Of a stretch of DNA of 64,000 nucleotides, positions 34,621-50,415 are shown one piece after another. Origin of the DNA: Bacteroidales bacterium. Lineage in GTDB: Bacteria; Bacteroidota; Bacteroidia; Bacteroidales; UBA932. Every line of letters starts with the position of its first letter. The stretch's first letter is position 1. Made by a program: the position numbers and the translations under genes. The stretch is from the NCBI GenBank assembly GCA_017617035.1, contig JAFZWV010000031.1:1-64000 (forward strand). Reading direction: 5' to 3'. The notes beneath the pieces are model-generated. The model was not told where the DNA came from and made no database searches. It saw only the letters and a list, made by a program, of their open reading frames with translations.

Positions 34621-34740
34621 TAATTAGCAGAAGCAAACTGCACCCCTGAGCCGCTTTTTGCCCGGACTAGGGTCGCCGTCAGACGCGGAGCGTCCTAAGG
34701 CGATAGCGGTATCAGGGGTGCAGTTTGTTCTGCTAAATTA
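34621..34740 (+). repeat. Hairpin element copy B (long form)
   Basis: Arms 34621-34655 and 34705-34740 are complementary over about 33 bp with small bulges. The core holds TTTTGCCCGGACTAGGGTCG and an inner stem GACGC/GCGTC, then GCGATAG. It fills the gap between two converging genes and contains the stop codon of the LytTR gene. Part of its arm (CTGCACCCCTGAGCCGCT) is shared with copy F. Confidence 0.92.
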
Positions 34741-35559
34741 CAGAAGTGCTGCTAACGAATCGTAGTAGGTCTTGCTGACAGGAATCGGAGGAGTACCAGG
34801 CGTATCGAGGTCGGCGAAGACGAAGCCTGCACTGTCTTTGCGAAGGACAGTGATGTGCGCCGGATTCACGAAGAAAGCGCGCTGGCAGCGCTGAAGGCCC
34901 TGCTTGTGGAGCATTTCCTCCAGGCGCTTCATCGAGGAGCGCAGCTGATACTTCTTCACGCTTTCGCCGTCGAGATAAACGATGTTCACATAGTTCTCAT
35001 TGGCCTCGACATACAGCAGCGACGATGCGGCTACGGCAAGCTTGAGTTTCTGATTCGAATCCTTGAAGCGGATAAGATTGTCGTCGCCGACGGGCTCTTC
35101 GACTGCGCGGTTGAGCGCATAGATCATGGTTCCCATCTCGATCAGGAGGTAAGGAAGCACGAGAACGCCGAAAAAGTCGATGAGGCAGCGGGGAAGGGCC
35201 CAGAAGAAACTGTACTGCTCGCGGCCTAAAGTAATGAGGGCCATGTACATCGCGCCGAATGCGGCGAAAATGAATACTTCAGCCAGACACCAGCCCGCAT
35301 ATGAGAGGAGCGAGGGCTCCATTTTATTGCGGAGAAAATAGAAGGCGAGTCGGGTGCCGACCAGCACCAGCAGAAGTATAGTGGCCAGAATAGTCACGTT
35401 AAACTCCAGATATACGCCGCCTGCGTCTAGGAACTCCATGATGCCGGCCGGTCTGAAGACCAGCAGGAAGAGCAGGAAGAATACCGGCAGGCCTACAAAA
35501 TGGACGATTTGTGTCGGGAATCTGAAGAAAGCTTTAGGAATACCTGTGTTCTTTTGCAT
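34738..35559 (-). CDS. Membrane-bound LytTR-family regulator
   Basis: A 273-residue protein with four hydrophobic helices (about 20-165) and a C-terminal LytTR DNA-binding domain (about 180-270, LLYVEANENYVNIVYLDG, then SMKRLEEML and FFVNPAHI). It senses or responds at the membrane and binds DNA directly; no separate sensor kinase is nearby. ATG35559 is 6 nt after a -7 box, so the mRNA is probably leaderless; longer frames upstream overlap the divergent gene. Confidence 0.87.
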   Translation of the reverse strand: MQKNTGIPKAFFRFPTQIVHFVGLPVFFLLFLLVFRPAGIMEFLDAGGVYLEFNVTILATILLLVLVGTRLAFYFLRNKMEPSLLSYAGWCLAEVFIFAAFGAMYMALITLGREQYSFFWALPRCLIDFFGVLVLPYLLIEMGTMIYALNRAVEEPVGDDNLIRFKDSNQKLKLAVAASSLLYVEANENYVNIVYLDGESVKKYQLRSSMKRLEEMLHKQGLQRCQRAFFVNPAHITVLRKDSAGFVFADLDTPGTPPIPVSKTYYDSLAALL

Positions 35560-35565
35560 AACGCA

Positions 35566-35573
35566 CAAAGATA
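35566..35573 (-). promoter_or_regulatory. -7 box TATCTTTG of the LytTR gene
   Basis: A perfect match ending 6 nt before the minus-strand ATG. It forms a back-to-back pair with the plus-strand box at 35586. Confidence 0.65.
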
Positions 35574-35585
35574 AATATATATTGT

Positions 35586-35593
35586 TATCTTTG
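35586..35593 (+). promoter_or_regulatory. -7 box TATCTTTG of the lipoprotein gene at 35600
   Basis: A perfect match ending 6 nt before ATG35600. The two divergent start codons are only 40 nt apart. Confidence 0.65.
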
Positions 35594-35599
35594 CAAAGT

Positions 35600-36925
35600 A
35601 TGTCTAAAACCTGGATCAAGACACTCGCCGCCCTTGCGGTATCTATCCTTCTAAGTTCCTGCCAATGGTTCGGCGGGCGCGACTCCGGAGATTCGGTTCC
35701 CGAAGTCAAGGGTTTCGAACTCCTCAGTTATGTCCCTTCGGATGCATGCGGAGTAATAGTGTGTGAGAAAGTAGTTGCCGGCCTCGAGACTCTCTTCGAT
35801 TCAGGCAGCGTATTCCGTGAATTATCCTATGGCCGTCTTGCCGACAGCAAGATGGTCATTTCATATCATTTTGTGGGTAGCCTTACCCCTATGATAGCCG
35901 TCGATGCCGGCAAATCGCAGGCAGATGCAAAGCAGGCGGCGGAGATCATAGAATCTGCCGCAGCCCATGACCTGCATGCCCGTATAGTCCAGAAGGCTTC
36001 TAAATATGGACGCAGGAGCGTGCTGCTCATCAGCCCGTCCGACCCCATCCTGGATGCCGCCGAAAGGCATATGGAGGCCCACACTTCCGTCCTTGAGGTA
36101 GAAGGTCTGACTGACGCCCTTGAGAAGGCTCCGGCCAGGGGCGATGTCGTTATCTTCCGTAACGATGCAATCTCCAACCTCCTCCCTAAGGATTTCCTCT
36201 CAAAGTACATCACCCGCAAGCAGATACTCGCCTTCATCAAGGGCTATTCAGACTGGACCGTCATGCACCTTACCGGTTCGGAACCGGCCGGAAAGGGCGT
36301 GTACCTGAGCTTTGATGTCAGGACAGTCCACCCCGACGACTACTCCAAGTCAGCCCAGGTCTTCGAAACTCAGGGCTATGGAGAGAGCAAGGTAGCTAAC
36401 ATGCTGCCTCAGGGCACGACATACGTAATTGACCAGCCGATAAGTTCCATAGAGAATCTTATCGAAGCCCGTAAGAAGAACCTCGACGCGGGCGGGGCCC
36501 TAAATAAGTGGAACAATGCCTGCGCCCAGCTTAAAAAGACAACGGGCGAAGATCCTCTCAAATGGGCCGAAGAGACCGATATCAAGGAGGTCGCAAAGGT
36601 GAACTGGAAGGGCGAGGAGGTAGTCCTCATACGCCCGGCCAAACCGCTGGTCGCGCATAACGTGCGCCCCAACGCCCACCGCGGCTTCGTGACCGCCCTG
36701 TTTGGCCAGGGCTATGCTATCTCCGACGAGTCATATTCCGCCTGCATAGGCAACTGGCTTATTATGGGCAGCGAAGACGCCGTGAAACATTTCCTCGCAT
36801 CGGAAGTCCGCCATAAGCTGCACTACTGGCCGACTAAGAGTGTAAAGGCTGTAGTGCTGGCCGACGACTGCCAGCTCAGCTGGACAAGGAGCGAACTTCG
36901 CTTCGACGTGTATAGAACCTATTAG
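35600..36925 (+). CDS. Lipoprotein of unknown function
   Basis: A 441-residue lipoprotein (cysteine in LLSSCQWFG). The sequence alternates helical and beta segments (ELLSYVPSDACGVIVCEKVVAGLETLF). I do not recognise a family, though the general pattern resembles DUF3352-type periplasmic proteins. The start is fixed by the signal peptide and the promoter box 6 nt before it. The acyl-CoA synthetase gene follows after 3 nt. Confidence 0.75.
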   Translation: MSKTWIKTLAALAVSILLSSCQWFGGRDSGDSVPEVKGFELLSYVPSDACGVIVCEKVVAGLETLFDSGSVFRELSYGRLADSKMVISYHFVGSLTPMIAVDAGKSQADAKQAAEIIESAAAHDLHARIVQKASKYGRRSVLLISPSDPILDAAERHMEAHTSVLEVEGLTDALEKAPARGDVVIFRNDAISNLLPKDFLSKYITRKQILAFIKGYSDWTVMHLTGSEPAGKGVYLSFDVRTVHPDDYSKSAQVFETQGYGESKVANMLPQGTTYVIDQPISSIENLIEARKKNLDAGGALNKWNNACAQLKKTTGEDPLKWAEETDIKEVAKVNWKGEEVVLIRPAKPLVAHNVRPNAHRGFVTALFGQGYAISDESYSACIGNWLIMGSEDAVKHFLASEVRHKLHYWPTKSVKAVVLADDCQLSWTRSELRFDVYRTY

Positions 36926-36928
36926 ACA

Positions 36929-38590
36929 ATGCTTAAGATAAAGTCTTTAAACAAGCAGCTCGAACGCAGCTTCCGTAAGAATTGGTGGAGGCCGGCTCTG
37001 TCCAACTACAAGGGCGAGACGATGAACTACGCCATGCTCGCCGAGCGCATAGCGATTATCCATGCCAATTTCGCGCAATTCGGCGTGAAACCTGGCGACA
37101 AAATCGCCATCTGCGGCCGCAACCAGGCCAACTGGGGCGTCGCATTCCTCGCGGCCATGACCTATGGTGCCGTGCCTGTGCCGCTGCTCCACGACTTCAA
37201 CCCCGCCAACATAGTCGACCTGATCAACCATGCCGAGGCGAGGGCCTTCTTCGTAGACGAAGCGATCTGGGACAAGCTGGACCATTCCAAGCTTCCGGAC
37301 AGCCTGCTGGGCTCGCTTAATCTCGCAAACTTCAGGGTGCTTGGCTCCATTATCCCCGATCTTGCCGCTGAGCGCTCCAGAATAATCTCGGAGTTCCATA
37401 CGAAGTATGCCTCCGGTCTTCGCCCCGAAGATCTTGACTACTACAAAGACAGACCCGACGATCTCGCGCTGATAAACTATACTTCCGGCACCTCCGGATT
37501 CTCCAAGGGCGTGATGATACCCTACAGGGCCCTTATCGCCAATATCGAGTTCGCCGCCAACGAGGCTGAGCCCCAGATGGACTACACCTCCGACATGGTC
37601 GCGATGCTCCCCAGCGCCCACATGTACGGCCTCATGTTCGAGTTCCTCTTCGAGATGTGCATCGGCGCACACACCCACTTCCTTACGAAGACCCCGAGCC
37701 CCAAGGTCATCATGACCGCATTCCAGGAAATCCATCCGGCAACCATCATCAGCGTCCCGCTCATTATCGAGAAGGTCTACAAGAACCAGATCAAGCCCAT
37801 GATCAGGCGTCTGCGTTTCTTCTACGACATCCCGTTCGTCGGAAGCTTACTGCGTAGGAGCGTGCGCAAGAGGGTAAAGGCCGCCTTTGGAGGCTCCTTC
37901 GAAGAGGTGATTCTCGGCGGCGCTGCCGTCAACCCCGAAGTGGAGAAGTTCTTCCACAAGATGAGTTTCCCCTTCACGGTCGGCTACGGCATGACCGAGT
38001 GCGCACCAATCATAACTTACTCCCACTGGAATCGCAGCAAGGTCGGCTCGTCCGGCAAGGCTGTCGCGGGCTGCAAGATACGCATTGACTCCAAGGATCC
38101 GGAGAAGATTCCGGGAGAGATCCAGGTCAAAGGCCCCAACGTATTTCTGGGGTACTACCGCAACGAGGAGGCCACCGCCGCAGCGTTCACCGAAGACGGA
38201 TGGTTCCGCACCGGCGATATGGGCATCATCAAGAAAGGCTACCTCTATCTGAAGGGCCGTCTTAAGTGCATGATTCTTTCCGCCAACGGCCAGAACATCT
38301 ACCCTGAAGAGCTGGAGGCCGTGATCAACAGCGTCCAGTATGTAGTCGAATCGCTGGTGGTCGAGGAGAAGGGTGGTCTTACGGCCATAGTCTATCCCGA
38401 CTATGTCACCGCCGCTATCGACGGCATCGAAGCCGAGGAACTCGAGGGTAAGCTCCTGAGCTGCATCCCCGAGATCAACGAGCAGCTTCCGAATTATGCC
38501 CACATCCGCAAAATAGAATTCCTCAAGGAAGACTTCGAGCGTACACCCAAGAGAAGTATTAAACGTTATCTATACCTGAAAAATGAATAA
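36929..38590 (+). CDS. AMP-binding acyl-CoA synthetase
   Basis: A 553-residue adenylate-forming enzyme that activates a carboxylic acid, probably a long-chain fatty acid, with ATP and CoA. It has the phosphate-binding loop TSGTSGFSKG (about 185-194), the adenine-site motif GYGMTECAP, the hinge region GDMGIIKKGYLYLKGRLK and a C-terminal catalytic lysine region ERTPKRSIKRYLY. There are no membrane helices. It overlaps the deaminase gene by 8 nt. Confidence 0.9.
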   Translation: MLKIKSLNKQLERSFRKNWWRPALSNYKGETMNYAMLAERIAIIHANFAQFGVKPGDKIAICGRNQANWGVAFLAAMTYGAVPVPLLHDFNPANIVDLINHAEARAFFVDEAIWDKLDHSKLPDSLLGSLNLANFRVLGSIIPDLAAERSRIISEFHTKYASGLRPEDLDYYKDRPDDLALINYTSGTSGFSKGVMIPYRALIANIEFAANEAEPQMDYTSDMVAMLPSAHMYGLMFEFLFEMCIGAHTHFLTKTPSPKVIMTAFQEIHPATIISVPLIIEKVYKNQIKPMIRRLRFFYDIPFVGSLLRRSVRKRVKAAFGGSFEEVILGGAAVNPEVEKFFHKMSFPFTVGYGMTECAPIITYSHWNRSKVGSSGKAVAGCKIRIDSKDPEKIPGEIQVKGPNVFLGYYRNEEATAAAFTEDGWFRTGDMGIIKKGYLYLKGRLKCMILSANGQNIYPEELEAVINSVQYVVESLVVEEKGGLTAIVYPDYVTAAIDGIEAEELEGKLLSCIPEINEQLPNYAHIRKIEFLKEDFERTPKRSIKRYLYLKNE

Positions 38591-39005
38591 GTTCGACGAA
38601 AGATATCTCGAGATGGCCGAGGTTTGGGCCAAGAATTCGTACTGCAAGCGCCGCCAGGTAGGCGCCCTGCTCGTAAAGGACCGCATGATTATTTCCGATG
38701 GTTATAACGGAACTCCTGCGGGCTTCGAGAACCAGTGCGAAGACGAAAACGACGTCACTAAACCTTACGTCCTCCACGCCGAGGCAAATGCAATTACCAA
38801 GGTCGCTAAATCGGGCAACAGTTCCGAGGGCGCTACCCTCTATGTAACCGCCTCGCCCTGCATGGAATGCGCAAAGCTTATCATCCAGTCGGGCATCAAG
38901 AGAGTAGTCTACAAAGACCTCTACCGCATTACAGACGGCATCGACCTGCTGAAGAGCGCAAATATCGAATGCGAGCAGCTCGACACAAACAAGAATGAAA
39001 AGTAG
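38583..39005 (+). CDS. dCMP deaminase family protein
   Basis: A 140-residue zinc-dependent deaminase converting dCMP to dUMP on the route to dTTP. The catalytic site is intact: HAEANAI (metal histidine and proton-shuttle glutamate) and SPCMECAKLI (two cysteines). Family residues KDRMIISDGYNGTPAG are present near the N-terminus. It overlaps the synthetase by 8 nt and ctpA by 11 nt. Confidence 0.92.
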   Translation: MNKFDERYLEMAEVWAKNSYCKRRQVGALLVKDRMIISDGYNGTPAGFENQCEDENDVTKPYVLHAEANAITKVAKSGNSSEGATLYVTASPCMECAKLIIQSGIKRVVYKDLYRITDGIDLLKSANIECEQLDTNKNEK

Positions 39006-40563
39006 CAACTTCACCTCAATAGCCATCGCACTCTCGGGCATAGTCCTGGGGGCGTTGGCCGTGCTCACTTTTCAAGATGTTTTCAATCAAAAGAAGGAGC
39101 TTCGCACCCAATATCAAGACTGGCGCAAGCTCAATCTCATACTCCAGAAGATAGACGAGAACTACGTCGATCCTGTCGACAGACAGAAGATCACCGACGC
39201 GGCGGTAGTCGCCGCCCTGGCTGAGCTGGATCCCCACTCGGTCTACCTCCCCCCGGAGGATCTCGAAGAAGCGGAAACCAGCCTTGCCGGCGGATTCGAC
39301 GGAATCGGCATCCAGTTCAACGTCCCCAACGATACGGCTGTCGTCATCGAGGTCATCCCCGGCGGCCCGTCCGAGAAAGTGGGCTTGATGCCGGGAGACC
39401 GCCTGCTCAAGGTCGATTCGCTCGAGATCGCAGGCCGTAAGTACCCTCAGGACAGCATGGTACGCCATATGCGCGGCCCTGCCGGCACCAAGGTCATGGT
39501 CACGGTTAAGCGCGGAAGCGAAGTCATCCCGTTCGAAATCACCCGCGACAAGATCCCTACCCACAGCGTCGATGCCGCGTTCATGGTCGGCGATACAACC
39601 GGCTACATAAGGCTCTCAAAGTTCGCGCGCACTACCTTCAAGGAGTTTAACGACGCCTCGAAGGACCTTCGGAAGCAGGGCATGAAAGAGCTCATCTTCG
39701 ACCTGCGCGACAACTCTGGCGGCTACCTCGACCAGGCGCTTCAGCTCGCCAACGCCTTCCTCGAGAAGGGCGATACGGTCGTCTACATCGAAGGCCTCCA
39801 CCGCAAGCGCGAGGACTACCTTGCCGACGGCAGGGGAGCGCTCAAGGACATGAAACTGAAGGTGCTCATCAACGACGGCTCGGCTTCTTCGAGCGAGATC
39901 TTCGCCGGCGCCATCCAGGACAACCACCGTGGGCTTATCTACGGTCGCCGTTCGTTCGGCAAGGGCCTCGTCCAGGAGCCGGTCTTCTTCACCGACGGCA
40001 GCGGCATACGCCTCACGGTCGCCCGTTTCTACACACCCAGCGGACGTTGCATCCAGAAGCCATATTCGAAGGACTACGCATGGGAGGTCTACAAGCGCTA
40101 CGATGAAGGCGAGATGGTCGATGCCGACAGCATGAACGTATCGAAGGGCGGTATCATTCCCGACGTGTTCGTGCCGGTAGACACTACCCGTGCAAGCGAT
40201 TTCTATATCAAGTGTAACCGCAAGGCCACTACGATGCGCTTCTCGTCGGCATACTTCGATGCCCATAAGAGCGAGCTTGGCGCCATCTCTGACTACGACG
40301 AATTGCTGAAGTATCTCGACAGGGCCAGACTAGACAAACAGTTCCTGGCTTATGCGCGCGAAAAAGACGGCCTGGTGCCCAAGCCGGGGGAGTGGGAAGA
40401 GTCGAAGAGTTATATGATGACCCAGATTAAGGCTCTGGTCGGCCGCTATTCGAAACTCGGCGACAACGCCTTCTACCATCTCTATCTCCAGATCGACGAC
40501 GTCTTCGCCGCCGCTCGTTCCTCTGTCATTCCGAGCGAAGCGAAGGAATCTATTGGGCGATAA
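38995..40563 (+). CDS. ctpA: C-terminal processing peptidase (S41 family)
   Basis: A 522-residue periplasmic protease anchored by an N-terminal hydrophobic segment. It has a PDZ domain (about 85-170, GIGIQFNVPNDTAVVIEVIPGGPSEKVGLMPGD) and the S41 core with the serine in GSASSSEIFAGA and the lysine in FGKGLVQ. The last nine or so residues (VIPSEAKES plus IGR) come from the dispersed repeat at 40524-40550. The end overlaps the convergent TonB-like gene by 14 nt. Confidence 0.92.
   Translation: MKSSNFTSIAIALSGIVLGALAVLTFQDVFNQKKELRTQYQDWRKLNLILQKIDENYVDPVDRQKITDAAVVAALAELDPHSVYLPPEDLEEAETSLAGGFDGIGIQFNVPNDTAVVIEVIPGGPSEKVGLMPGDRLLKVDSLEIAGRKYPQDSMVRHMRGPAGTKVMVTVKRGSEVIPFEITRDKIPTHSVDAAFMVGDTTGYIRLSKFARTTFKEFNDASKDLRKQGMKELIFDLRDNSGGYLDQALQLANAFLEKGDTVVYIEGLHRKREDYLADGRGALKDMKLKVLINDGSASSSEIFAGAIQDNHRGLIYGRRSFGKGLVQEPVFFTDGSGIRLTVARFYTPSGRCIQKPYSKDYAWEVYKRYDEGEMVDADSMNVSKGGIIPDVFVPVDTTRASDFYIKCNRKATTMRFSSAYFDAHKSELGAISDYDELLKYLDRARLDKQFLAYAREKDGLVPKPGEWEESKSYMMTQIKALVGRYSKLGDNAFYHLYLQIDDVFAAARSSVIPSEAKESIGR
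40524..40550 (+). repeat. Dispersed GAGCGAAGCGAAGGA repeat in the ctpA 3' end
   Basis: The unit runs TGTCATTCCGAGC then GAAGCGAAGGAATC, identical to 4280-4306. It is translated as VIPSEAKES at the CtpA C-terminus. Confidence 0.9.
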
Positions 40564-41266
40564 AACTATAGACTATATTTCCGACTTCGCGCGCGGCTCC
40601 TGTCTTGCTGCGCGAAAAGCGGCTGCGCAGTGCCGCGCCCAGTGCGTAATCCCGCAGACATTTATCTGAGGAAGATACTCCCTCCTGTATCTTTGCGTCC
40701 ACGACATCGCCAGCGGCGTTGACCGTGATTATTACCGTCACCTCGCCTGCCCCTATGCACTTGTAGGCCGGTATGGGAAGGTAGCTGCCCTTCCTCTCTC
40801 CCAGCGAGTAGGAGAGGACAGAGGGACCTTGGTAAGTAGACTCCTTCGCTTCGCTCGGAGTGACATTTTTGTCATCCCGAGGAGCAACAGCGACGTAGGG
40901 ATCTTTTTCCTGCTTACGGTTGATATTCTCGCGCGCCTGCTGCTCGATGCGCTTCGCATCGCGGTAGAGTTTTTCGGCGTCGGTACCGCGGTCGTCCTTG
41001 AGCTTGCTGCGGTCCACAGCCACATTGCGCGGCGCGTCCTGTCCGACACCGGCCTCGCGGAGCATGCGCTCCACACGCTCGTTGGCCGCTTTCTGCCGCG
41101 CAATCTCCTTTTCCAACTTCTCTATCTTATCCTGCTTCGAGAAGTCGAACATGATTGATTGGCGCTGCTTTTCTATGTTGGGATGGACAACCGTCAGGAG
41201 TAAAATCAGAATCACCGCGAGGTGTATGCTCACGGTGACCAGAATTCCTATGAGGTTATCACGCAA
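40550..41266 (-). CDS. TonB-like energy-transducer protein
   Basis: A 238-residue protein with one N-terminal membrane helix (about 6-26), a charged coiled-coil-like segment (KIEKLEKEIARQKAANERVERML), a linker, and a C-terminal TonB-like domain (about 160-238, GEVTVIITVNAAGDVVDAKIQEG). It may carry proton-motive force to outer-membrane receptors, with ExbB/ExbD encoded 3 kb away. About 22 linker residues (DPYVAVAPRDD then KNVTPSEAKES) come from a dispersed repeat. The start is TTG41266, directly at the udk stop. Confidence 0.83.
   Translation of the reverse strand: MRDNLIGILVTVSIHLAVILILLLTVVHPNIEKQRQSIMFDFSKQDKIEKLEKEIARQKAANERVERMLREAGVGQDAPRNVAVDRSKLKDDRGTDAEKLYRDAKRIEQQARENINRKQEKDPYVAVAPRDDKNVTPSEAKESTYQGPSVLSYSLGERKGSYLPIPAYKCIGAGEVTVIITVNAAGDVVDAKIQEGVSSSDKCLRDYALGAALRSRFSRSKTGAAREVGNIVYSFIAQ
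40839..40912 (-). repeat. Dispersed repeat inside the TonB-like linker
   Basis: On the minus strand TGTCACTCCGAGC then GAAGCGAAGGAGTC (40839-40865) is preceded by an opposed half, GATCCCTACGTCGC through CTCCTCGGGATGAC (40866-40912). The pair could fold as a double hairpin. Both halves stay in frame with the gene. Confidence 0.85.
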
Positions 41267-41887
41267 TTATTTTTGTGCCCTTAATTCCTTGCGGATGGTA
41301 TTGTTGATAACGTCGATGGCGACCTTGTTATGACCGCCCTGAGGGATGATAATATCGGCGTAGCGCTTGCTGGGCTCGATGAACTGCAGGTACATCGGCT
41401 TAACAGTCTTCGAGTAACGCTCGATAACCCAGCGGACATCCTTGCCGCGCTCGACTATGTCGCGTGTCATAACGCGCATCAGACGGTCGTCGTCATCTGC
41501 ATCCACGAAAATCTTGATATCCATCTGGTCGCGCAGCTCCGGGCATGTAAACACCAGAATACCCTCGATGATAATAACATCTGCCGGATCGACATGAACA
41601 GTCTCAGTCTTGCTGCGGCTACACGATATGTATGAGTAAATAGGCTGCTCGATGCTCTTGCCGGACTTCAGCTCTGAAAGCTGCTGACAAATCAGCTCCC
41701 AGTCGATTGCATCGGGGTGATCGAAGTTGTGGTTGCGCTTCTCCTCGTCGGTCAGATCGCTCGAATCCTTATAATACGAATCGAGGGGAATCGTAACGAC
41801 GCTCTCGCCCTTCAGGGTCTCAGTAATAGCTCTAACTACCGTGGTCTTTCCACTGCCGGAACCTCCGGCGATACCGATTACTAACAT
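41267..41887 (-). CDS. udk: Uridine kinase
   Basis: A 206-residue kinase that phosphorylates uridine and cytidine to UMP and CMP in pyrimidine salvage. It has the P-loop GIAGGSGSGKTT (5-16), the nucleoside-site motif PLDSYYKD and NFDHPDAIDW. The TonB-like gene begins right at its stop, so they are probably co-transcribed. Hairpin copy C lies between it and asnS. Confidence 0.95.
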   Translation of the reverse strand: MLVIGIAGGSGSGKTTVVRAITETLKGESVVTIPLDSYYKDSSDLTDEEKRNHNFDHPDAIDWELICQQLSELKSGKSIEQPIYSYISCSRSKTETVHVDPADVIIIEGILVFTCPELRDQMDIKIFVDADDDDRLMRVMTRDIVERGKDVRWVIERYSKTVKPMYLQFIEPSKRYADIIIPQGGHNKVAIDVINNTIRKELRAQK

Positions 41888-41900
41888 ATTCTATTATTTG

Positions 41901-42011
41901 TTAGTATTTCGATTAGCTGTTTTGACCCGCCTTTGCCCGGACTAGGGTCGCTCCCAGACGCGAAGCGTCGATGAGCGATGGCGGGTCAAAACAGCTAACC
42001 GAAATATATTA
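41901..42011 (+). repeat. Hairpin element copy C (long form)
   Basis: Arms 41901-41931 and 41980-42011 share 19 perfect pairs (TTAGCTGTTTTGACCCGCC) plus outer partial pairing. The core is TTTGCCCGGACTAGGGTCGC, inner stem GACGC/GCGTC, and GAGCGATGG. The right arm includes the asnS stop codon. Confidence 0.92.
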
Positions 42012-43418
42012 AAACTCAGCATTTTTAGGTGTTCTAGGGAATGGGATAACGTCCCTGATGTTTTGCATGCCAGTCACGAAGAGCAGCAGACGCTCGAAGC
42101 CAAGGCCAAAGCCGGAGTGAGGGCAGCTGCCGAAGCGGCGGGTATCGAGATACCATTCGAGGTTGTCGCGCTTCATATGGAGCTCGTCGATGCGTCCCTC
42201 CAGTTTCTTGAGATCGGCTTCACGCTCGGATCCTCCTATAATCTCTCCGATCTTCGGGAAGAGAACGTCCATCGCGCGGACGGTCTTTCCGTCGTCGTTC
42301 TGCTTCATGTAGAAGGCCTTGATATCCTTCGGGTAGTCGGTCAGGATAACAGGCTTCTTGAAATGCTCTTCTACCAGATATCTTTCGTGTTCGCTCTGGA
42401 GATCGGTTCCCCAGTCGACAGGGTATTCAAATTGGTGGCCATGGGCAATCGCATCCTTGAGGATGTTGATACCCTCGGTGTAGGGCAGGCGTACGAACTC
42501 GGTGTCGATAACGCCTTCAAGACGCGCTATAAGTGTATCGTCATAGCGGTCGTTAAGGAACTGGATGTCGTCGCGGCAATTGTCAAGGGCGTATTTGACA
42601 AGGCTCTTGATAAAGTCCTCGGCGAGGTCCATATTGTCTTTGATGTCGTAGAACGCCATCTCCGGCTCTATCATCCAGAACTCCGCGAGGTGGCGCGGGG
42701 TGTTGGAGTTCTCGGCGCGGAAGGTCGGACCGAAGGTGTAGATTTCGCCAACGGCAGTAGCGCCGAGCTCGCCTTCGAGCTGGCCGCTGACCGTAAGGCT
42801 CGTCATCTTTCCGAAGAAGTCCTTCGAGTAGTCCGGCAGACCCTTCTTGTTCTTAGGAACATTGTTGAGGTCAAGGGTAGTGACCTGGAACATCTGGCCG
42901 GCGCCCTCGGCGTCCGACTCAGTGATCAGAGGGGTGTTGAGGTAGACAAAGCCCCTGCTGTGGAAATACTCATGGATGGCGAAGGCCATCTGGCTGCGCA
43001 GACGGTAGATGGCGCCGAAGGTGTTGGTCCTCGGGCGCATGTGGGCTACAGTACGCAGATACTCGAACGAAGTGTCCTTTTTCTGGAGAGGGTAGCGCAT
43101 AGGATCGCTCTCGCCGTAGATCTCGATCTCATTAGCCTTGATTTCGACTGCCTGGCCGCTGCCTATGGACTCTACGAGGGATCCTTTGACTGCGATGCAG
43201 GCGCCGGTGCTGATCCTGGCGAGTATCGGTTCGGTCTCGGGGGTCTTGTCGACTACTATCTGGATATTCTTGATAGTAGAGCCGTCGTTGAGGGCGATGA
43301 ACGCGATTTCCTTATTTCCTCTCTTAGTCCTTACCCAACCTTTGGCAAGAACGTCCTGGCCTGCGGACATAGCCAGCAGGTCCTTCACTTTCGTACGAAT
43401 TATTTCCTTTTGACTCAT
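42009..43418 (-). CDS. asnS: Asparagine-tRNA ligase
   Basis: A 469-residue class IIb aminoacyl-tRNA synthetase that charges tRNA-Asn. It has an N-terminal OB-fold anticodon-binding domain (about 18-105), motif 2 ([24 protein letters not shown]) and motif 3 ([15 protein letters not shown]). No promoter box is visible upstream, where an exbD terminator lies. Its stop codon falls inside the right arm of hairpin copy C. Confidence 0.96.
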
Positions 43419-43437
43419 TTGTTTGTTTTTGATAAAA

Positions 43438-43463: not shown

Positions 43464-43481
43464 ATATTCGGTAGTCTGAGC

Positions 43482-43949
43482 TTACTCAGACGGTTTCCTT
43501 GCGGAATACATGATCTTAAGCGCGGAGCAGCGGCGCAGCTCCTGCTTGACGTCGGTAATGATACCCATTCGAACATCCTGGTCGGCCCTGATACAGACTG
43601 TCATGAGAGGACGATCCTCCTCTTTCATGGCCTCGCGCTCAGAAGCGACGAAGTCGCGGATGTCTTCCTTGCTCTTGAAGGAGTCGTTGAGCTGGATACG
43701 TGCGTCGGTACCGTACTGAGCCTGGAGAGACTTGATAGGAGTACCGATGTTGATATAAGACGAAAGGTCTTTGCGTTCCAGTTTTGTGACTTCCGAAGCC
43801 TCGGGAACTTTCACCTGAACTTTGTTTTCGGTCTCACGCATCTGCGTAGTAACCATGAAGAAGAACAGGAGCATGAACACGATATCGGAGAGGGATCCTG
43901 AAGAGATTCCGGGAACTTCTTTCTTGTTGTTTCCACCAAACATTGACAT
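43482..43949 (-). CDS. exbD: ExbD-type proton channel subunit (second copy)
   Basis: A 155-residue protein with one N-terminal membrane helix (about 18-38, GSLSDIVFMLLFFFMVTTQM) carrying the essential aspartate of ExbD/TolR, and a periplasmic domain. With ExbB it forms the motor that energises TonB. The start MSMFGGN is set by a strong SD. It lies 15 nt after the first exbD gene. Confidence 0.9.
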   Translation of the reverse strand: MSMFGGNNKKEVPGISSGSLSDIVFMLLFFFMVTTQMRETENKVQVKVPEASEVTKLERKDLSSYINIGTPIKSLQAQYGTDARIQLNDSFKSKEDIRDFVASEREAMKEEDRPLMTVCIRADQDVRMGIITDVKQELRRCSALKIMYSARKPSE

Positions 43950-43957
43950 AGCTTAGT

Positions 43958-43963
43958 CCTCCT
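43958..43963 (-). promoter_or_regulatory. Strong Shine-Dalgarno before the second exbD
   Basis: On the minus strand AGGAGG is 8 nt before the ATG. It is one of only two perfect sites seen in the window. Confidence 0.65.
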
Positions 43964-43964
43964 C

Positions 43965-44549
43965 TTATCTTGTTGATGCGTTAACATCCTTAGGCTCTGC
44001 CTCGGAAATGTTCTGAGGGACGGCTTTCTTTACCCATCCCTGCTCCTCTTCCGAGAGGCGGCCGTAAGGCTTTCCGAAATTGGCCATCGAGAATTCGTCA
44101 CGGAGTTCGTTGACTGCCTTCACGAGTTCGTTCTGTACGGCGATGTACTTCGCGTAACTCGTACCACGGTCGTTCTGAAGGGAGATAACGCCCTTGGAGA
44201 CCGGAACAGCCTTGAAACCCTCGATCTCCTTTACTTCCTTCTCGGGAAGGTTGGGATCGTTGTTCGGGTTATCGAGGAACTCCTTGATTTTATCCTTCAG
44301 GAAAGCGAGCTCGATTCCTTCACTACCGGCAAGTACCTTGTCTGCGGAGTTGATACGCACCACGATGATGTTGCGCCTGTTGATCTTCTGATCCTCTACC
44401 TGCTGCTTTGAGTCAGGAATAGGGGGAAGACGGCGCGACAGACCTGTCTGGCTTCCCATGGTAGTAGTCATAAGGAAGTAGCAGAGCAGGAGGAATGCGA
44501 TATCCGCTGTTGAACTGGTATTTAAACCCGGAGTTTTTTTCTTGCTCAT
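43965..44549 (-). CDS. exbD: ExbD-type proton channel subunit (first copy)
   Basis: A 194-residue ExbD homologue. The single membrane helix (about 10-30, LNTSSTADIAFLLLCYFLMTTTM) holds the conserved aspartate; the periplasmic part is longer than in the second copy, with an insertion rich in N, D and P around residue 100. MSKKKTPG (44549) is chosen as the start; upstream codons would run into the 4-TM gene. Two different ExbD subunits in tandem are common in Bacteroidota. Confidence 0.88.
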   Translation of the reverse strand: MSKKKTPGLNTSSTADIAFLLLCYFLMTTTMGSQTGLSRRLPPIPDSKQQVEDQKINRRNIIVVRINSADKVLAGSEGIELAFLKDKIKEFLDNPNNDPNLPEKEVKEIEGFKAVPVSKGVISLQNDRGTSYAKYIAVQNELVKAVNELRDEFSMANFGKPYGRLSEEEQGWVKKAVPQNISEAEPKDVNASTR

Positions 44550-44556
44550 AGTCTTT

Positions 44557-45003
44557 TTACTTTGCCTGTTTCTTGTTGCGGACACCGGCTACAATCTCGC
44601 CGACGATGATGGAGAGAATGGTAAGGCCGCCCACAAGGTAGGTCAGATTAAGAATTGTATCAGTGAGCTTAAGGGTCGATTTCGAGGGCTGCTCGAGAAT
44701 TCCGATAGCCTCAGAACCCGGCGACAGGAAGTACACTGCCAGGACAACGACAGCGGCACCGCCCAGCACGGCAAGAAGCTTCCAGAGGAATTTCTTGTCG
44801 TTCTTCACCCCGATCCATCCGCCTATGCAGATGATGCTGATGAGGGCGAGGCCGACCATCGCATAAGTCCAGTAGAAGAGCACATCGACGGCGATGGCGT
44901 CGTTCTTCTTGAAGCCATAAATCCAGGCTCCGACGAAGATTCCGACACTGAGCACGAGGAGCGCCAGCAGGACCCATTTGATGATTTTACTGTAGTTTTT
45001 CAT
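44557..45003 (-). CDS. Four-helix membrane protein of the exbB-exbD operon
   Basis: A 148-residue protein with four hydrophobic segments (about 10-30, 42-62, 73-93, 117-138) and a lysine-rich C-terminus (VRNKKQAK). No enzymatic motif is seen. Its position between exbB and exbD is typical of Bacteroidota energy-transduction operons, so it may be an accessory part of that complex; this is inference from context. Confidence 0.78.
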   Translation of the reverse strand: MKNYSKIIKWVLLALLVLSVGIFVGAWIYGFKKNDAIAVDVLFYWTYAMVGLALISIICIGGWIGVKNDKKFLWKLLAVLGGAAVVVLAVYFLSPGSEAIGILEQPSKSTLKLTDTILNLTYLVGGLTILSIIVGEIVAGVRNKKQAK

Positions 45004-45012
45004 GATCCGGAA

Positions 45013-45807
45013 TTATTTTGCCTTGTAAGCTGTAAGGACATCTACGAGGTCGATCGAAGCCTCTTCCATATCGATGGTGATAGAGTCGATCTTAGCGAGG
45101 ATGTAGTTGTAGAACACCTGGAGGATCATAGCTACGATAAGACCCGCAACAGTTGTAATAAGAGCGACCTTCATACCGCCAGCAACAACGTTAGGGGAGA
45201 TATCACCTGCAGCCTGGATAGCATCGAATGCCTGGATCATACCGATAACGGTTCCGAGGAATCCGAGGGACGGGGCGATAGCGATGAAGAGAGAAATCCA
45301 GGAAAGACCGTTCTCGAGCATGCTCATCTGAATCGAGCCCGAAGAAACAACGTTCTTCTCAACTACGTCGAGACCCTGATCATAGCGGTCGAGTCCGTCG
45401 TAGAAGATCTTGGCGACAGGGCCGCGGGTATTGCGGCAAACATCCTTAGCTGCCTCGATTCCGCCTTCTGCAAGGGCTTTCTCTACCTTCTCAACGAGAG
45501 CCTTGGCATTTGTCCTCGAGAACGAGAGATAAAGGATACGCTCGATCGAGAGAGCCATACCGAGGATAAGGCAGATGATAACGAGTGACATGAAGCCTGC
45601 ACCACCCTCGATGAACTTGGTCTTGAGGGCCTGGTGGAGAGGAATCTCACTCTGAGTGTTGAACGGGTCAACCTCAGCATCTTCTGCAGCGGGTGCAGCT
45701 ACCTCAGTAGCCTCCGGTGCAGCCTGCTCAGATTCCTGTGCCGATGCGATGTTGGCGGAGAAGACCAGGATGGCCGCTGCTGCCAAAAACATGGAAATCT
45801 TTTTCAT
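45013..45807 (-). CDS. exbB: ExbB/TolQ-type proton channel protein
   Basis: A 264-residue MotA/TolQ/ExbB family protein. A signal-like N-terminal segment and an alanine-glutamate linker precede three membrane helices; the family core GLSWISLFIAIAPSLGFLGTVIGMIQAF is at about 165-192. It forms the proton channel with ExbD, encoded next in the operon. The 5' leader is about 70 nt, rich in CAA/AAC, without a clear promoter box. Confidence 0.93.
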   Translation of the reverse strand: MKKISMFLAAAAILVFSANIASAQESEQAAPEATEVAAPAAEDAEVDPFNTQSEIPLHQALKTKFIEGGAGFMSLVIICLILGMALSIERILYLSFSRTNAKALVEKVEKALAEGGIEAAKDVCRNTRGPVAKIFYDGLDRYDQGLDVVEKNVVSSGSIQMSMLENGLSWISLFIAIAPSLGFLGTVIGMIQAFDAIQAAGDISPNVVAGGMKVALITTVAGLIVAMILQVFYNYILAKIDSITIDMEEASIDLVDVLTAYKAK

Positions 45808-45902
45808 AACTGTTTTTGATTGTAGTTTTTAATTGTTGTTATTGATTTGTTGTTTATCTCAATTCACAAATTCGATGCAATATAGTAATAATTCTTCAAT
45901 GT

Positions 45903-46009
45903 TGGAACGTCCGGACAGACTTTTCAGGCGCATTTGCCCGGACTAGGGTCGCTCCCAGACGCATAGCGTCGATGAGCGATAGCGCCTGAAAAGTCTGCCC
46001 GGACGTCCA
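45903..46009 (+). repeat. Hairpin element copy D (long form)
   Basis: Arms 45903-45931 and 45982-46009 pair over about 28 bp with one bulge and one mismatch; the arm reads ACTTTTCAGGCGC at its inner end. The core is TTTGCCCGGACTAGGGTCGC, inner stem GACGC/GCGTC and GAGCGATAG. It ends 2 nt before the tatD stop codon. Confidence 0.92.
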
Positions 46010-46011
46010 TA

Positions 46012-46791
46012 TTATGAGGCCAGCCCAAACAACTTCTCAGCGTTGGCTGTGGTCGTGTCCGCGACCTGTTCGATGCTTATTCCTTTTAACTCAGCGAGTT
46101 TCGCGGCGATGAGCGGAATATACGAACTCTCATTTCGAGTTCCGCGAAGCGGAGTCGGCGCGAGGTAAGGAGCGTCGGTCTCCAGAAGAATCATTTCAAG
46201 AGGTATGTCTTTCACCGCTTCGGCGATTCCCGCCTTCCTGAAGGTTAGGACTCCGCCTATGCCAACGCTCCAGTCGCCGTATTTCCGTATGCGTGCCGCG
46301 GTTTCGGCGCTGCCGCTAAAGGCGTGGAGGTTGCCGCGCAGCCCCAGGCCGCGGCAGCTGTCGAGCACGGCGAAAAAGTCGTCCGTAGCATCGCGTAAGT
46401 GAATGTTCACCGGAAGGTTCAGCTTCGCGGCCAGCTCCAGCTGTGCTTTCAGCGCCTCCTTCTGCTGCTCCTTGAACTCGGTCGAGAAGTGGTAGTCCAG
46501 ACCGATTTCGCCTATGGCTACAAACCGCGAAGGATCCTTCGCGTGCTCGAAGACCATATCGAGTTCGTTCTTCCAGTTCTCAGCGACCGCGCCAGGGTAG
46601 AGGCCGAGCATGGGGAACACCACGCCTGGGTGACGCGCCACGAGCGCCAGCATACGCGGGCGGTCGTGGCTGTCGACATCGGCGTGGAGCATTCTCGTCA
46701 CTCCGGCCTCTACAGCCCGCGCGATCACCACGTCCTGCTCGCCCTCATACGCCTCATCACTCGGATGGCAATGTGTATCGATAAAAATCAT
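46012..46791 (-). CDS. tatD: TatD-family metal-dependent nuclease
   Basis: A 259-residue TIM-barrel hydrolase; TatD proteins are 3'-5' DNA exonucleases linked to DNA repair. Metal-site motifs are intact: DTHCHPSDE at the N-terminus, GEIGLDYH (about 96), HLRDA and ETDAPYLAP (about 205). ATG46791 is chosen over TTG46794 directly before it. The -7 box ends 5 nt before the ATG, so the mRNA is probably leaderless. Hairpin copies D and E flank the gene. Confidence 0.93.
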   Translation of the reverse strand: MIFIDTHCHPSDEAYEGEQDVVIARAVEAGVTRMLHADVDSHDRPRMLALVARHPGVVFPMLGLYPGAVAENWKNELDMVFEHAKDPSRFVAIGEIGLDYHFSTEFKEQQKEALKAQLELAAKLNLPVNIHLRDATDDFFAVLDSCRGLGLRGNLHAFSGSAETAARIRKYGDWSVGIGGVLTFRKAGIAEAVKDIPLEMILLETDAPYLAPTPLRGTRNESSYIPLIAAKLAELKGISIEQVADTTTANAEKLFGLAS

Positions 46792-46796
46792 CAATA

Positions 46797-46804
46797 CAAA
46801 TTTA
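46797..46804 (-). promoter_or_regulatory. -7 box TAAATTTG of tatD
   Basis: A TAnnTTTG match ending 5 nt before the tatD ATG. It lies between tatD and hairpin copy E. Confidence 0.6.
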
Positions 46805-46815
46805 ATAAAAAAAAG

Positions 46816-46920
46816 TAGAAGCAGACAGGTATTTAAAGCCCCATTTGCCCGGACTAGGGTCGCTCCCAGACGCGTAGCGTCGATGAGCGATAGGGGCTGT
46901 AAGTACCTGTCTGCTTCTAA
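46816..46920 (+). repeat. Hairpin element copy E (long form)
   Basis: Arms 46816-46842 and 46893-46920 pair over about 26 bp (TAGAAGCAGACAGGT then GCCCC). The core is TTTGCCCGGACTAGGGTCGC, inner stem GACGC/GCGTC and GAGCGATAG. The right arm includes the dprA stop. On the minus strand a run of eight T follows, so this copy could end dprA transcription. Confidence 0.93.
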
Positions 46921-48086
46921 TATTTACGAACTAAAATGGAGCAACGTTGAAGTAGATCGGTGACGATGAAGCCCCCGGTTTCGAGCGTGCCGACAAGGGT
47001 GACGGTCTGGACGTAGTCGAGGTTGAGTTGATGGGCGATTTCTTCGGCGCAGATTCCGCGGTTGAGTTTGATGCAGACTGCGATGCGGCAGAGTTTTTCG
47101 AGTGTGTCTGGATCCATGCTCTTAGCATAGCGTTCGCGCACCTCCTCTTCGAGCTCGGCCTTGCGACGGCGGTTGTAGGTCCCGAGACCGAGAGCGTCCG
47201 GAAGGGCCTCGACGTCCGCGATGGGCTCCGCGACATTCTCGCGAAGCAGAATGTTGCAGCCCTCCGAGCGGACATCGTCTATCCTGCCGGGCAACGCCCA
47301 CACATCGCGCCCGTAGTCGAACGCGGCATGAGCCGTGATCAAACTCCCGCCCCTGCGCTTCGATTCCACGACGACCGTGGCCGACGAAAGCCCCGCGATG
47401 ATGCGATTGCGCCTCAGGAAGGTCGCAGCCTGCGCGCTCGTACCGGGAGGGAAGTCGGTCACCAGCGCGCAGCCGGGCGTCGATGCAATCTGCTCCGCCC
47501 AACGCCTGTGGCCGCTCGGATAAATCTCCTCCGGCCCGGTCGGAATCACGGCGATCGTGCGCAGTCCCGCCTCCAGCGCAGCGCGGTGGGCCATGATATC
47601 GACGCCATACGCTAACCCACTGACTATAACGGGCTTAACCTGCGCCTGCGCGAGCGTGAAGACTATGCGGCGCGTCCATTCCTGACCGTAGAGGGAGATA
47701 TCGCGCGTCCCCACTATAGAGATGAAAACGCCTTCGGCGAAAAGGTCGGCGGCGGTGGAAGCGCTGCGGATGTACATGCCTGCGGGAGCGTCCGGACACT
47801 CGGCTAGTGCTTTGGGGTACGCCGGTTCACCGAGCGCGACGAACTCTATGCCTTTTGCCGCCATGTCTTCGAGTTCTTTCTCGCTCTTGGCAAGTTCCGC
47901 GTCGGACAATGCGCCCTCAAAACGCGAAAAGGGACCGAGCAATTCGTCCCTTTTGCGTTCGCTCAGGCTAAATAATTCGGCTATAGAGCCGCTTTCTTCG
48001 ATAAGTCTGTGCGACACCTTCGGATTATACCCGAAGGCTCGGTTGAGCGTACAAGCGCCCACCTTTGTAAGTTTTGAAGTTTCCAT
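46917..48086 (-). CDS. dprA: DNA-processing protein DprA
   Basis: A 389-residue protein that loads RecA on incoming single-stranded DNA during natural transformation. It has an N-terminal helical domain, the Rossmann-like core with SGLAYGVDIMAHRAAL, SGHRRWAEQI and GGSLITAHAA, and a C-terminal winged helix (about 330-385, RGICAEEIAHQLNLDYVQTVTLVGTLETGG). The stop lies inside hairpin copy E. queA is upstream by 15 nt. Confidence 0.94.
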   Translation of the reverse strand: METSKLTKVGACTLNRAFGYNPKVSHRLIEESGSIAELFSLSERKRDELLGPFSRFEGALSDAELAKSEKELEDMAAKGIEFVALGEPAYPKALAECPDAPAGMYIRSASTAADLFAEGVFISIVGTRDISLYGQEWTRRIVFTLAQAQVKPVIVSGLAYGVDIMAHRAALEAGLRTIAVIPTGPEEIYPSGHRRWAEQIASTPGCALVTDFPPGTSAQAATFLRRNRIIAGLSSATVVVESKRRGGSLITAHAAFDYGRDVWALPGRIDDVRSEGCNILLRENVAEPIADVEALPDALGLGTYNRRRKAELEEEVRERYAKSMDPDTLEKLCRIAVCIKLNRGICAEEIAHQLNLDYVQTVTLVGTLETGGFIVTDLLQRCSILVRKY

Positions 48087-48101
48087 AGTTTGTATATTGT
48101 T

Positions 48102-49151
48102 TTAAATGATCAGCATCGCATCTCCGTATGGTCCAAACCTGTATCCTTCTTCCAGTGCGACTCTGTAGGCGTTCATCACTTTCGTGTATCCTCCGAACGC
48201 CGCTACGGTCATCAGCATAGTCGACTGCGGGAGGTGGAAGTTGCTCACTATCGCATCCGGAATCGAGAACTCGTAAGGAGGGAAGATGAACTTGTTGGTC
48301 CAAAGATCGTTGTCCTTAATCTCTTTATTGGTAGTTACATAAGTCTCCAGGGCACGAATCACTGTAACGCCGCAGGCGACGACCTTATGGCCGGCGCGCT
48401 TAGTAGCGTTGATCTTGTCGGCCGCCTCGCGGGAGATAATCATCCTCTCTCCGTCCATCTTGTGCTTCGACAGGTCTTCCACATCGACCGAGCGGAAGTA
48501 GCCCATGCCCATATGAACGGTAATGAAGGTCTTGTCTATGTCCTTGAGAATCATGCGGTTGAAGAGCTCGCGGCTGAAGTGCAGACCTGCTGCCGGGGCG
48601 CTCACTGCGCCTTCGTTGGCAGCGAATATGGTCTGATAGTTCTCCACGTCGGACTCATCTGTCTCTTCCTTTACCCACTCGGGAACCGGGGTGTGGCCCA
48701 GAGCGTAAAGCGCCTGCTTGAACTCCTCGTACGGTCCATCGTAGAGGAAGCGCAGGGTACGACCGCGCGAAGTAGTATTGTCGATAACTTCCGCCACCAT
48801 CGAATCATCCTCACCGAAGTAGAGTTTATTGCCGATACGAATCTTGCGGGCCGGCTCCACGATAACGTCCCAGAGCCTTTGCTCCTTGCTGAGTTCCCTC
48901 AGAAGGAAAACCACAATGTCGGCCTCGGTCTTCTCTTTCTTTCCGTAAAGCTTTGCGGGAATGACTTTAGTATCATTAAGAACGAAGTTGTCGCCCTTTC
49001 CGAAATAGTCGATTATGTTTTTGAACTGTCTGTGCTCAATCTCGCCGCTATCCTTATGAAGAACCATAAGTTTGCATTCATCCCTCCATCTGGTGGGTTC
49101 TGTTGCGATTTTCTCCTGCGGGAGTTCGAAGTTGAATTGCGAAAGTTTCAT
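48102..49151 (-). CDS. queA: tRNA preQ1(34) S-adenosylmethionine ribosyltransferase-isomerase
   Basis: A 349-residue enzyme of queuosine synthesis that converts preQ1 at tRNA position 34 to epoxyqueuosine. Family signatures are MKLSQFNFELPQEKIATEPT, VAAPAAGLHFS-like SAPAAGLHFSRELF and HMGMGYFRSVDVEDLSKHKMDGE. The length is standard. It is followed after 15 nt by dprA and preceded by hairpin copy F. Confidence 0.96.
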   Translation of the reverse strand: MKLSQFNFELPQEKIATEPTRWRDECKLMVLHKDSGEIEHRQFKNIIDYFGKGDNFVLNDTKVIPAKLYGKKEKTEADIVVFLLRELSKEQRLWDVIVEPARKIRIGNKLYFGEDDSMVAEVIDNTTSRGRTLRFLYDGPYEEFKQALYALGHTPVPEWVKEETDESDVENYQTIFAANEGAVSAPAAGLHFSRELFNRMILKDIDKTFITVHMGMGYFRSVDVEDLSKHKMDGERMIISREAADKINATKRAGHKVVACGVTVIRALETYVTTNKEIKDNDLWTNKFIFPPYEFSIPDAIVSNFHLPQSTMLMTVAAFGGYTKVMNAYRVALEEGYRFGPYGDAMLII

Positions 49152-49208
49152 TGGTCGATATTAGATATAGTATTCTATATACGGCCAATACATGCAAAAA
49201 GTTTCATG

Positions 49209-49320
49209 TAGCATAAGGGCACTGCACCCCTGAGCCGCTTTTTTCCCGGACTAGGGTCGCTCCCAGACGCATAGCGTCATTGAGCGATAGCGGTATCAGG
49301 GGTGCAGTGCCTTATGCTGC
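49209..49320 (+). repeat. Hairpin element copy F (long form)
   Basis: Arms 49209-49239 and 49289-49320 pair over about 28 bp. The inner arm CTGCACCCCTGAGCCGCT is shared with copy B. The core is TTTTCCCGGACTAGGGTCGC, inner stem GACGC/GCGTC and GAGCGATAG. It overlaps the last codons of the NUDIX gene. Confidence 0.92.
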
Positions 49321-49920
49321 TCGAAAAACTTCCAGTATGGAAGGATAGGTATTTTTCAGGAACGGAGGCAGGGAAGACTTAGCCACCCACACGGCCTTGG
49401 AGATATCTTCTTCTCGCTGGGGAATCAGCTCGACAGGCTTAGTATAGAGCATTCTGAACCACCAGGTGTGTTTCAGGTGCCAGATTCCGTTTCTCAAATA
49501 ACAGTGGTCCGTGATGCAGATAAGATCCTGAAGCTCCAGTTCGTCGACTCCCGTCTCCTCCTGAACTTCGCGAATCGCAGTCACCTCGATATCTTCTCCC
49601 TCCTCGCGGTGGCCTTTCGGCAGGTCCCAAAGCCCATTGCGGCTAATCAGAAGAAAATCGTCTCGCCTGTTGACGACCAGTCCGCCTGCCGCATCGACAT
49701 TTTTAAACTGAGCACAGAGATCGGCGTATGCTGCGTCGGTATCTTCAGTAGGAATATAAATGCGCGCGATGGAATCGGTCTGCTCGAACATACGCACAAG
49801 AGTGCCGATATCGATCCTGATGCCCGGATGGAAAATGACGGCATTCGGATCCGACAGCGAATCGTCTGTCGGAGGACAGATGATTATACAGCGCTTCTCG
49901 AAATAGATTTTATGAGTCAT
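49312..49920 (-). CDS. NUDIX hydrolase
   Basis: A 202-residue pyrophosphohydrolase. The Nudix box is complete (GHREEGEDIEVTAIREVQEETGV, about 99-121). An N-terminal segment of about 75 residues precedes the box and is not a known domain. The substrate is unknown. MTHKIYF (49920) is the chosen start; its promoter overlaps that of the divergent SRPBCC gene. Its 3' end lies inside hairpin copy F. Confidence 0.9.
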   Translation of the reverse strand: MTHKIYFEKRCIIICPPTDDSLSDPNAVIFHPGIRIDIGTLVRMFEQTDSIARIYIPTEDTDAAYADLCAQFKNVDAAGGLVVNRRDDFLLISRNGLWDLPKGHREEGEDIEVTAIREVQEETGVDELELQDLICITDHCYLRNGIWHLKHTWWFRMLYTKPVELIPQREEDISKAVWVAKSSLPPFLKNTYPSILEVFRAA

Positions 49921-49925
49921 TTTCC

Positions 49926-49933
49926 TATCTTTG
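49926..49933 (+). promoter_or_regulatory. -7 box TATCTTTG of the SRPBCC gene
   Basis: A perfect match, 21 nt before ATG49955. The expected start point falls inside the -7 box of the opposite gene at 49939-49946. Confidence 0.6.
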
Positions 49934-49938
49934 CAGAG

Positions 49939-49946
49939 CAAATATA
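49939..49946 (-). promoter_or_regulatory. -7 box TATATTTG of the NUDIX gene
   Basis: A perfect match on the minus strand, 18 nt before ATG49920. Together with 49926-49933 it forms a crossed pair, each box lying over the other's start point. Confidence 0.6.
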
Positions 49947-49954
49947 ATGAAAAT

Positions 49955-50362
49955 ATGGCAGAGCACTATACAAGTAAACACGGAATCGTCGGAAGGTCGC
50001 CCATGGAATTGTACATGGTTTTCACAGACCTCAGGCTCTTCAAGCAGATGGTTCCGCCCGACAAACAGGTCGACATCGAAGCCGACTTCGACACCCTCAC
50101 GGCAACCGCCCAGGGCATGTCGATAACTGTCAGAGTCGCCGAGCGTCACCCCTACGACCTCATCGTCCTAGAAGACCAGAACGCCCCATTCCACTTCAGC
50201 GTAAAGATCCACTTCGACGATGGCGGCGCCGCAAAGACCGACTTCTGGCTCGAAGCCGACGTAGAGCTCAATGGCATAATGAAACTCATGATCGGCGGCA
50301 AAATCCGCGAAGCCCTCGACAAAATCGTCGATGGCCTCGTCGACGCCTCCGCACATATATAA
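49955..50362 (+). CDS. SRPBCC-fold (START-like) protein
   Basis: A 135-residue protein with the START/SRPBCC pattern: HGIVGRSPMELYMVFTDLRLFKQMVP, a central beta stretch ending VRVAERHPYDLIVLED, and a C-terminal helix IREALDKIVDGLVDASAHI. Such proteins bind hydrophobic ligands or act as chaperones; no specific function can be given. ATG49955 is chosen over ATG49947 because it gives the MAEHYT start. Hairpin copy G begins at its last base. Confidence 0.82.
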   Translation: MAEHYTSKHGIVGRSPMELYMVFTDLRLFKQMVPPDKQVDIEADFDTLTATAQGMSITVRVAERHPYDLIVLEDQNAPFHFSVKIHFDDGGAAKTDFWLEADVELNGIMKLMIGGKIREALDKIVDGLVDASAHI

Positions 50363-50415
50363 CTTTCAGCCTCATTTTCCCGGACTAGGGTCGCGAAGCG
50401 ATAGAGGCTGAAAGT
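50362..50415 (+). repeat. Hairpin element copy G (short form)
   Basis: Arms 50362-50373 (ACTTTCAGCCTC) and 50404-50415 are perfectly complementary over 12 bp. The loop has TTTTCCCGGACTAGGGTCGC followed directly by GAAGCGATA, without the inner stem of the long form. It begins at the SRPBCC stop codon. Confidence 0.92.

Follow-up and report, generated by a model that had tools for sequence, protein, structure and literature searches.

A predicted mobile palindromic element in Bacteroidales genomes whose arms stay complementary while its core can invert

We analyzed a 64,000-nt stretch of DNA from a Bacteroidales bacterium of the UBA932 lineage (positions 1 to 64,000 of contig JAFZWV010000031.1, assembly GCA_017617035.1; hereafter the window), in which a family of hairpins shares a fixed core, CCCGGAYTAGGGTCGC, between long complementary arms. 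This hairpin is probably a mobile palindromic element, here predicted, in which template switching during replication homogenizes the arms and flips the core. Both of these changes are seen when orthologous sites of two related genomes are compared, and copies of the same core are found in frame within genes of other Bacteroidales.

All seven copies proposed for the window by an earlier sequence-only reading were recovered where it had placed them, each with an exact core and with arms that pair within the copy. In 100 dinucleotide shuffles of the window, the core was matched at up to three mismatches 1.26 times on average, and seven matches were never reached. The source draft genome (1.64 Mb in 33 contigs, 80% complete) contains 45 exact cores versus none for a reversed-pattern control. 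A covariance model built from an alignment of 39 source-genome copies identified 46 full-length elements and three partial copies at E ≤ 0.1, together with four weak hits on the opposite strand of elements that are in the count already, so that further copies of the family do exist. The element is about 80-120 bp long and consists of a 5' arm, a bulge (e.g., ATTTT or CTTTG), a CCC-GGAYTA-GGG hairpin, a TCGC...GCGA stem, the letters TA and a 3' arm. The stem carries an optional inner hairpin, whose absence defines the short form (copies 1151 and 50362). The arms are 12 to 35 bp in length and variable at their outer ends; the conserved part of the element is its middle.

Pairing of the arms is nearly complete. 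In 39 source-genome copies, the median number of opposed positions is 28 and 1028 of 1093 are Watson-Crick pairs; in 75 copies from relatives, the median is 23 and the corresponding fraction is 1671 of 1811 (these statistics exclude the weak-armed source copy L024 and relatives' copies L098, L100, L109, L131 and L153, and four partial or truncated source-genome copies are unscored). Within the 39-copy alignment, 88.6% of cells are paired, versus 69.6% after shuffling and 33.5-49.4% when the partner is slid by 1-3 columns, a comparison in which the real pairing has an advantage over the slid versions, the structure having come from this very alignment. Changes on both sides of a pair were counted in 237 cells, versus 79 after shuffling. 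The claim that the arms mostly differ in sequence between copies holds with a restriction: copies 34621 and 49209 have the inner part of their arms in common, and one arm family, judged by eye, unites about ten source-genome copies including these two.

Orthologous loci were compared with the nearest relative, genome G289, over about 250 kb (83% identity in the largest block). Thirteen of 44 source-genome copy rows had both flanks in G289, which gave twelve sites. Nine of them are filled in both genomes, two (window 50379 and the L037 tandem pair) are empty in G289, and one (window 49245) is occupied there by other DNA. The empty sites support the suggestion of the sequence-only reading that the palindrome is mobile. 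At three of the nine filled sites, the core is inverted between the genomes. Among the arm pairs of these nine intergenic sites, 193 are unchanged, 17 show complementary double changes (both sides changed, Watson-Crick in both genomes), 11 show single changes and six are gaps; the copy at 46816..46920 shows five of the complementary kind. Under independent change at 17% divergence, 221 pairs would be expected to yield approximately 62 single and approximately two complementary double changes. Ten pairs of in-gene copies gave 150 unchanged pairs, 29 complementary double changes, 13 single changes and seven gaps, as well as six double changes that do not pair in both. The inverted cores and the complementary double changes together speak for the copying process that the sequence-only reading had offered, one that makes an inverted copy of adjacent DNA.

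Template switching between inverted repeats is described as homogenizing arms and inverting spacers (PMC8604942) and as creating and maintaining hairpins (PMC8794818). Arm homogenization and spacer inversion, the pair of signatures of this process, are both present in our site comparison, and it is from these products that we infer template switching as the molecular step. An insertion event would place the hairpin where it is tolerated, for instance at a gene end or in a variable protein loop, and a function at the locus would be dispensable thereafter. Folding back of the nascent strand would transfer a mutation from one arm to the other, and if copying ran through the whole fold-back, the core would end up inverted. 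Exchange between copies could keep the cores alike despite differing arms. A wider core, at 0 to 12 edits from its orthologue, is closer to some copy of the same genome than to the orthologue at seven of the nine filled sites, in both genomes; its mean distance is 8.7 and 8.4 within the two genomes and 9.4 between them. Since the nearest of many copies is here compared with one orthologue, exchange between copies is favored weakly.

The gene context of the element differs between the source genome and its relatives. According to simple reading-frame calls made without a gene finder, none of 40 full source-genome copies lies inside a reading frame of at least 100 codons, and 28 of the 40 have one end at most 15 nt from a stop codon (the abutting-stop analysis ran on 35 of the 40 copies, the other five having no stop within 15 nt). 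Copies from relatives were collected by a scan of public contigs, in which at least 109 stretches matched and 80 were listed; 77 of these 80 are titled Bacteroidales or Bacteroidia, and many come from ruminants. The 80 listed loci hold 83 copies, and 80 copies in 77 loci were retained after the loci from other phyla (L103, L106 and L112) were dropped as chance matches. Among the matches listed, 47 of 80 relatives' copies reside in a stop-free frame (more than 70 codons before the core and 45 after it), and 40 of these 47 use two of the six possible frames (p = 3e-13), which yield peptides resembling GAFARTGSRSDA or SASLRDPVRANA. In short cores with GTACAGGG or GGACAGGG, all six frames are free of stops, and in the GGATAGGG form five are; the long form of the source genome has stops in three. 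With a short core that is nearly stop-free in all frames, an inversion within a gene would swap a GAFARTGSRSDA-like for a SASLRDPVRANA-like peptide.

Hosts with NCBIfam matches above a curated cut-off are RsmH, MetG, prephenate dehydrogenase, DnaX, DnaG and YgiQ; the matches for the hosts of L139, L145, L104 and L091 fall below their respective cut-offs. In RsmH, two of the 30 loci read (L200 and L201) hold this core, in arms that have little in common, and L227 and L228 have no insert of any kind, a further difference between filled and empty sites. In MetG, the region could be read by motif in 13 of 30 loci, four of which contain the core, two in each orientation. Overall, both core orientations occur in five of nine in-gene sets picked by eye from the listed matches, and two of these five sets include a copy with degraded arms (L098 or L109). 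Other palindromes or repeated peptides were also noticed by eye in the RsmH loop (L202-L207, L225 and L229) and in the C-terminal region of MetG (L236, L239, L248, L260 and L261), and in-frame repeat peptides of DSRNKSGNDG-, VISSEASSVISS- and CHSERGEES-like types occur at these spots. The different palindromes indicate that several in-frame repeat families use the same places.

Opposite orientations could in principle reflect independent insertions at hot spots rather than inversions of one resident copy. Such hot spots would fit the variety of palindromes that different species have in the RsmH loop and in the C-terminal region of MetG, as well as the dissimilarity of the L200 and L201 arms. 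However, in MetG, at window 45937 and at L001 and L035, arms and flanks align and only the middle is reversed, and we consider independent insertion very improbable as the general explanation.

A different possibility, raised in the sequence-only reading as an RNA of the 3' untranslated region, is a structured RNA at mRNA 3' ends (a stabilizer, an attenuator or a bidirectional terminator) whose pairing is selected at each locus. The position of source-genome copies close to stop codons and outside long frames, the strong covariation in the 39-copy alignment and the conservation of the core at orthologous sites are all in its favor. Pairing maintained at the mRNA level would predict G-U mismatches in preference to A-C. 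On the mRNA strand of in-gene copies, we counted 23 G-U versus 22 A-C mismatches, and source copies with one abutting stop codon gave 11 versus 13 on the strand of that gene, i.e., no preference. On the core strand of all copies the counts are 67 versus 43 (p = 0.03), and an excess in copies outside the two common in-gene frames, given below, also agrees with an RNA; all of these mismatch tests have little power. The inverted cores at filled sites, the same core residing in frame inside relatives' genes and the lack of an Rfam match count against an RNA at 3' ends, and the presence of both core orientations at the same sites argues against a strand-specific RNA. RNA function is therefore not favored for this element, and the 3'-end explanation appears unlikely.

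The hairpin might instead be the DNA target or substrate of a protein, such as a hairpin-binding transposase, whose action keeps core and arm pairing intact and inverts the core incidentally. In its favor, the core keeps its sequence in either orientation, about ten source copies in one arm family are what recent spread would produce, and known repetitive extragenic palindromes (REPs) are linked to tyrosine transposases (PMC3733652). However, among the same-genus genomes sampled, Y1_Tnp (the family of the REP-linked RAYT transposases and the only transposase family tested) was matched in 37 of the 44 genomes with the element and in 182 of the other 256. The seven genomes that have the element but no match are incomplete, and three of them (G179, G205 and G291) have 5-10 element copies by pattern. 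A Y1 transposase as a necessary partner is thus unsupported. We regard a protein substrate of this kind as improbable.

Several observations weigh against the reading as a mobile element with template switching. Only two of the nine filled sites show a change in the 16-nt core, one base each, while the flanks have diverged by about 17%. Such conservation is not expected of a purely neutral resident, and half of it is by choice, because source copies were selected for an exact core and G289 copies were not. A G-T excess on the core strand (44 versus 21, p = 0.006), for which we have no explanation, suggests some strand-specific constraint; it comes from a mostly intergenic set, the source copies plus those copies of relatives that use neither of the two common in-gene frames. 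Moreover, selection for pairing combined with an independent inversion process would leave the same pattern. No insertion enzyme was found for the element. When the marks of a MITE, a target duplication and terminal inverted repeats of a known transposase, were considered, the two sites empty in G289 showed no clear target duplication by eye. Between an inverted pair of copies on contig C20 no autonomous copy was seen, the genes there looking ordinary by reading, without a family search.

A stronger version of the mobile-element reading is somewhat less probable than not. The hairpin may be selfish, with no function at its loci; host replication may repair its arms and turn its core, the core may have become readable in nearly all frames, and the hairpin would live in essential genes.

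The distribution of the element is narrow. Among 300 genomes sampled from the genus of the source, 44 carry the core pattern. Of 149 genomes sampled across the family, two have it, the source genome and another member of its genus; it was not found in any of the 138 that belong to other genera. The covariance model matched 12 of 101 relatives, the source genome counted; its one match outside the genus, in G094 (same order, other family; 25.6 bits), is probably chance, the core being absent on inspection. Viral contigs gave no match to the core pattern, and plasmids and phages gave none to the one window copy tried. The sequence-only reading did not recognize a described family, and our searches agree: Rfam 15 reported only three tRNAs in the window, nothing for eight relatives' loci and, at a relaxed threshold, only unrelated families far below the gathering score for five source-genome loci. 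REP families were compared by their published descriptions only. No title or abstract in the literature searched, which did not include most subscription papers, describes this hairpin family.

Four known systems, as the cited papers describe them, resemble the element in part. Rickettsia palindromic elements (RPEs) are short and present in many copies, some of which interrupt unrelated genes without breaking the frame and are translated with them; they measure about 150 bp and form ten families (PMC10969869), with CGTC at one end (PMC3733652). Set against palindromes of about 100-150 bp in multiple copies, the present element has its 80-120 bp and 46 full copies, and in-frame residence is found in its relatives' copies, though not in the source genome. 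RPE arms are said to lose identity with time (PMC6649704), whereas the arms here stay complementary and the core inverts. Judged by published description, the element would work in the manner of the RPEs, as a palindrome that can reside in frame. The GTAG- and CGTC-tagged REPs are likewise short palindromes. Most lie between genes, on the downstream side, some are found in genes for replication and repair, and their stems show complementary variation (PMC3733652). However, their stems are mostly 6-9 bp with a conserved outer tetranucleotide (PMC3733652), while the longer arms here enclose a conserved middle, and no outer GTAG or CGTC is shared, since the outer arm ends differ across the 39-copy alignment by inspection. 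In nematomorph mitochondria, inverted repeats in protein genes have arms that are actively kept matched, and repeat conversion by template switching has been proposed for them (PMC6649704); these palindromes encode conserved protein regions and do not form a dispersed family built on one core. In yeast genes, inverted repeats show arm homogenization and spacer inversion by template switching in coding DNA (PMC8604942), but they are resident short repeats and not a repeated element family.

The copies in the window are listed in Table 1.

Table 1. Hairpin copies in the window, their neighbors and the state of the orthologous site in G289
Copy	Form	Element	Core	Strand	Context	G289
1	short	1151..1232	1186-1201	-	between FtsY match (262-1149 +) and PheT (1248-3704 +)	
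2	long	34621..34740	34661-34676	+	between two convergent reading frames	same orientation
3	long	41901..42011	41936-41951	+	between uridine kinase (41267-41887 -) and AsnS (42009-43418 -) matches	same orientation
4	long	45903..46009	45937-45952	+	stop codon of TatD-family gene (46012-46794 -)	core inverted within same arms
5	long	46816..46920	46848-46863	+	stop codon of DprA match (46917-48086 -)	same orientation
6	long	49209..49320	49245-49260	+	stop codon of Nudix-like reading frame (49312-49941 -)	other DNA, similar length
7	short, 12-bp arms	50362..50415	50379-50394	+	upstream of RsmF-like gene (50444-51574 +)	empty

Further repeats were observed near element copies or in the window. At L024, L037 (2969-3036) and L040 (3340-3496), tandem partial 5'-half units stand beside a full copy in steps of 67 and 78 bp, and perhaps arose by replication slippage. 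Contigs C17 and C30 of the source genome start inside or at an element copy; the repeat may therefore break the assembly, and longer copies could hide in the gaps. A second palindromic repeat (TTTTTGGACTACTCCCCGTAA plus an inverted arm) occurs at 18 places in the source genome at up to two mismatches and directly adjoins several element copies (e.g., at L003, L012, L025, L026 and L033). In G289, about 330 bp of extra repeat-like DNA (contig C16, ~20570-20900; L231) lies beside the orthologue of the 34621 copy. In the window itself, a repeat-like stretch with a small hairpin (40840-40900) reads VTPSEAKE and CHSERSEG in reverse frames, similar to peptides that relatives have at the MetG site.

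Complementary double changes are usually read as proof of a functional RNA. Here they accompany core inversion in a hairpin that sits within housekeeping genes, in frame and in either orientation, and whose arm mismatches have no G-U preference on mRNA strands; this case calls for caution in inferring functional RNA from such changes. The family would add a Bacteroidales case to the in-frame palindromic elements, and it allows a direct test of whether template switching alone can maintain dispersed hairpins. If the selfish reading is true, a mobile element maintained by template switching would be a standing source of protein change, each in-gene inversion swapping one inserted peptide for another.

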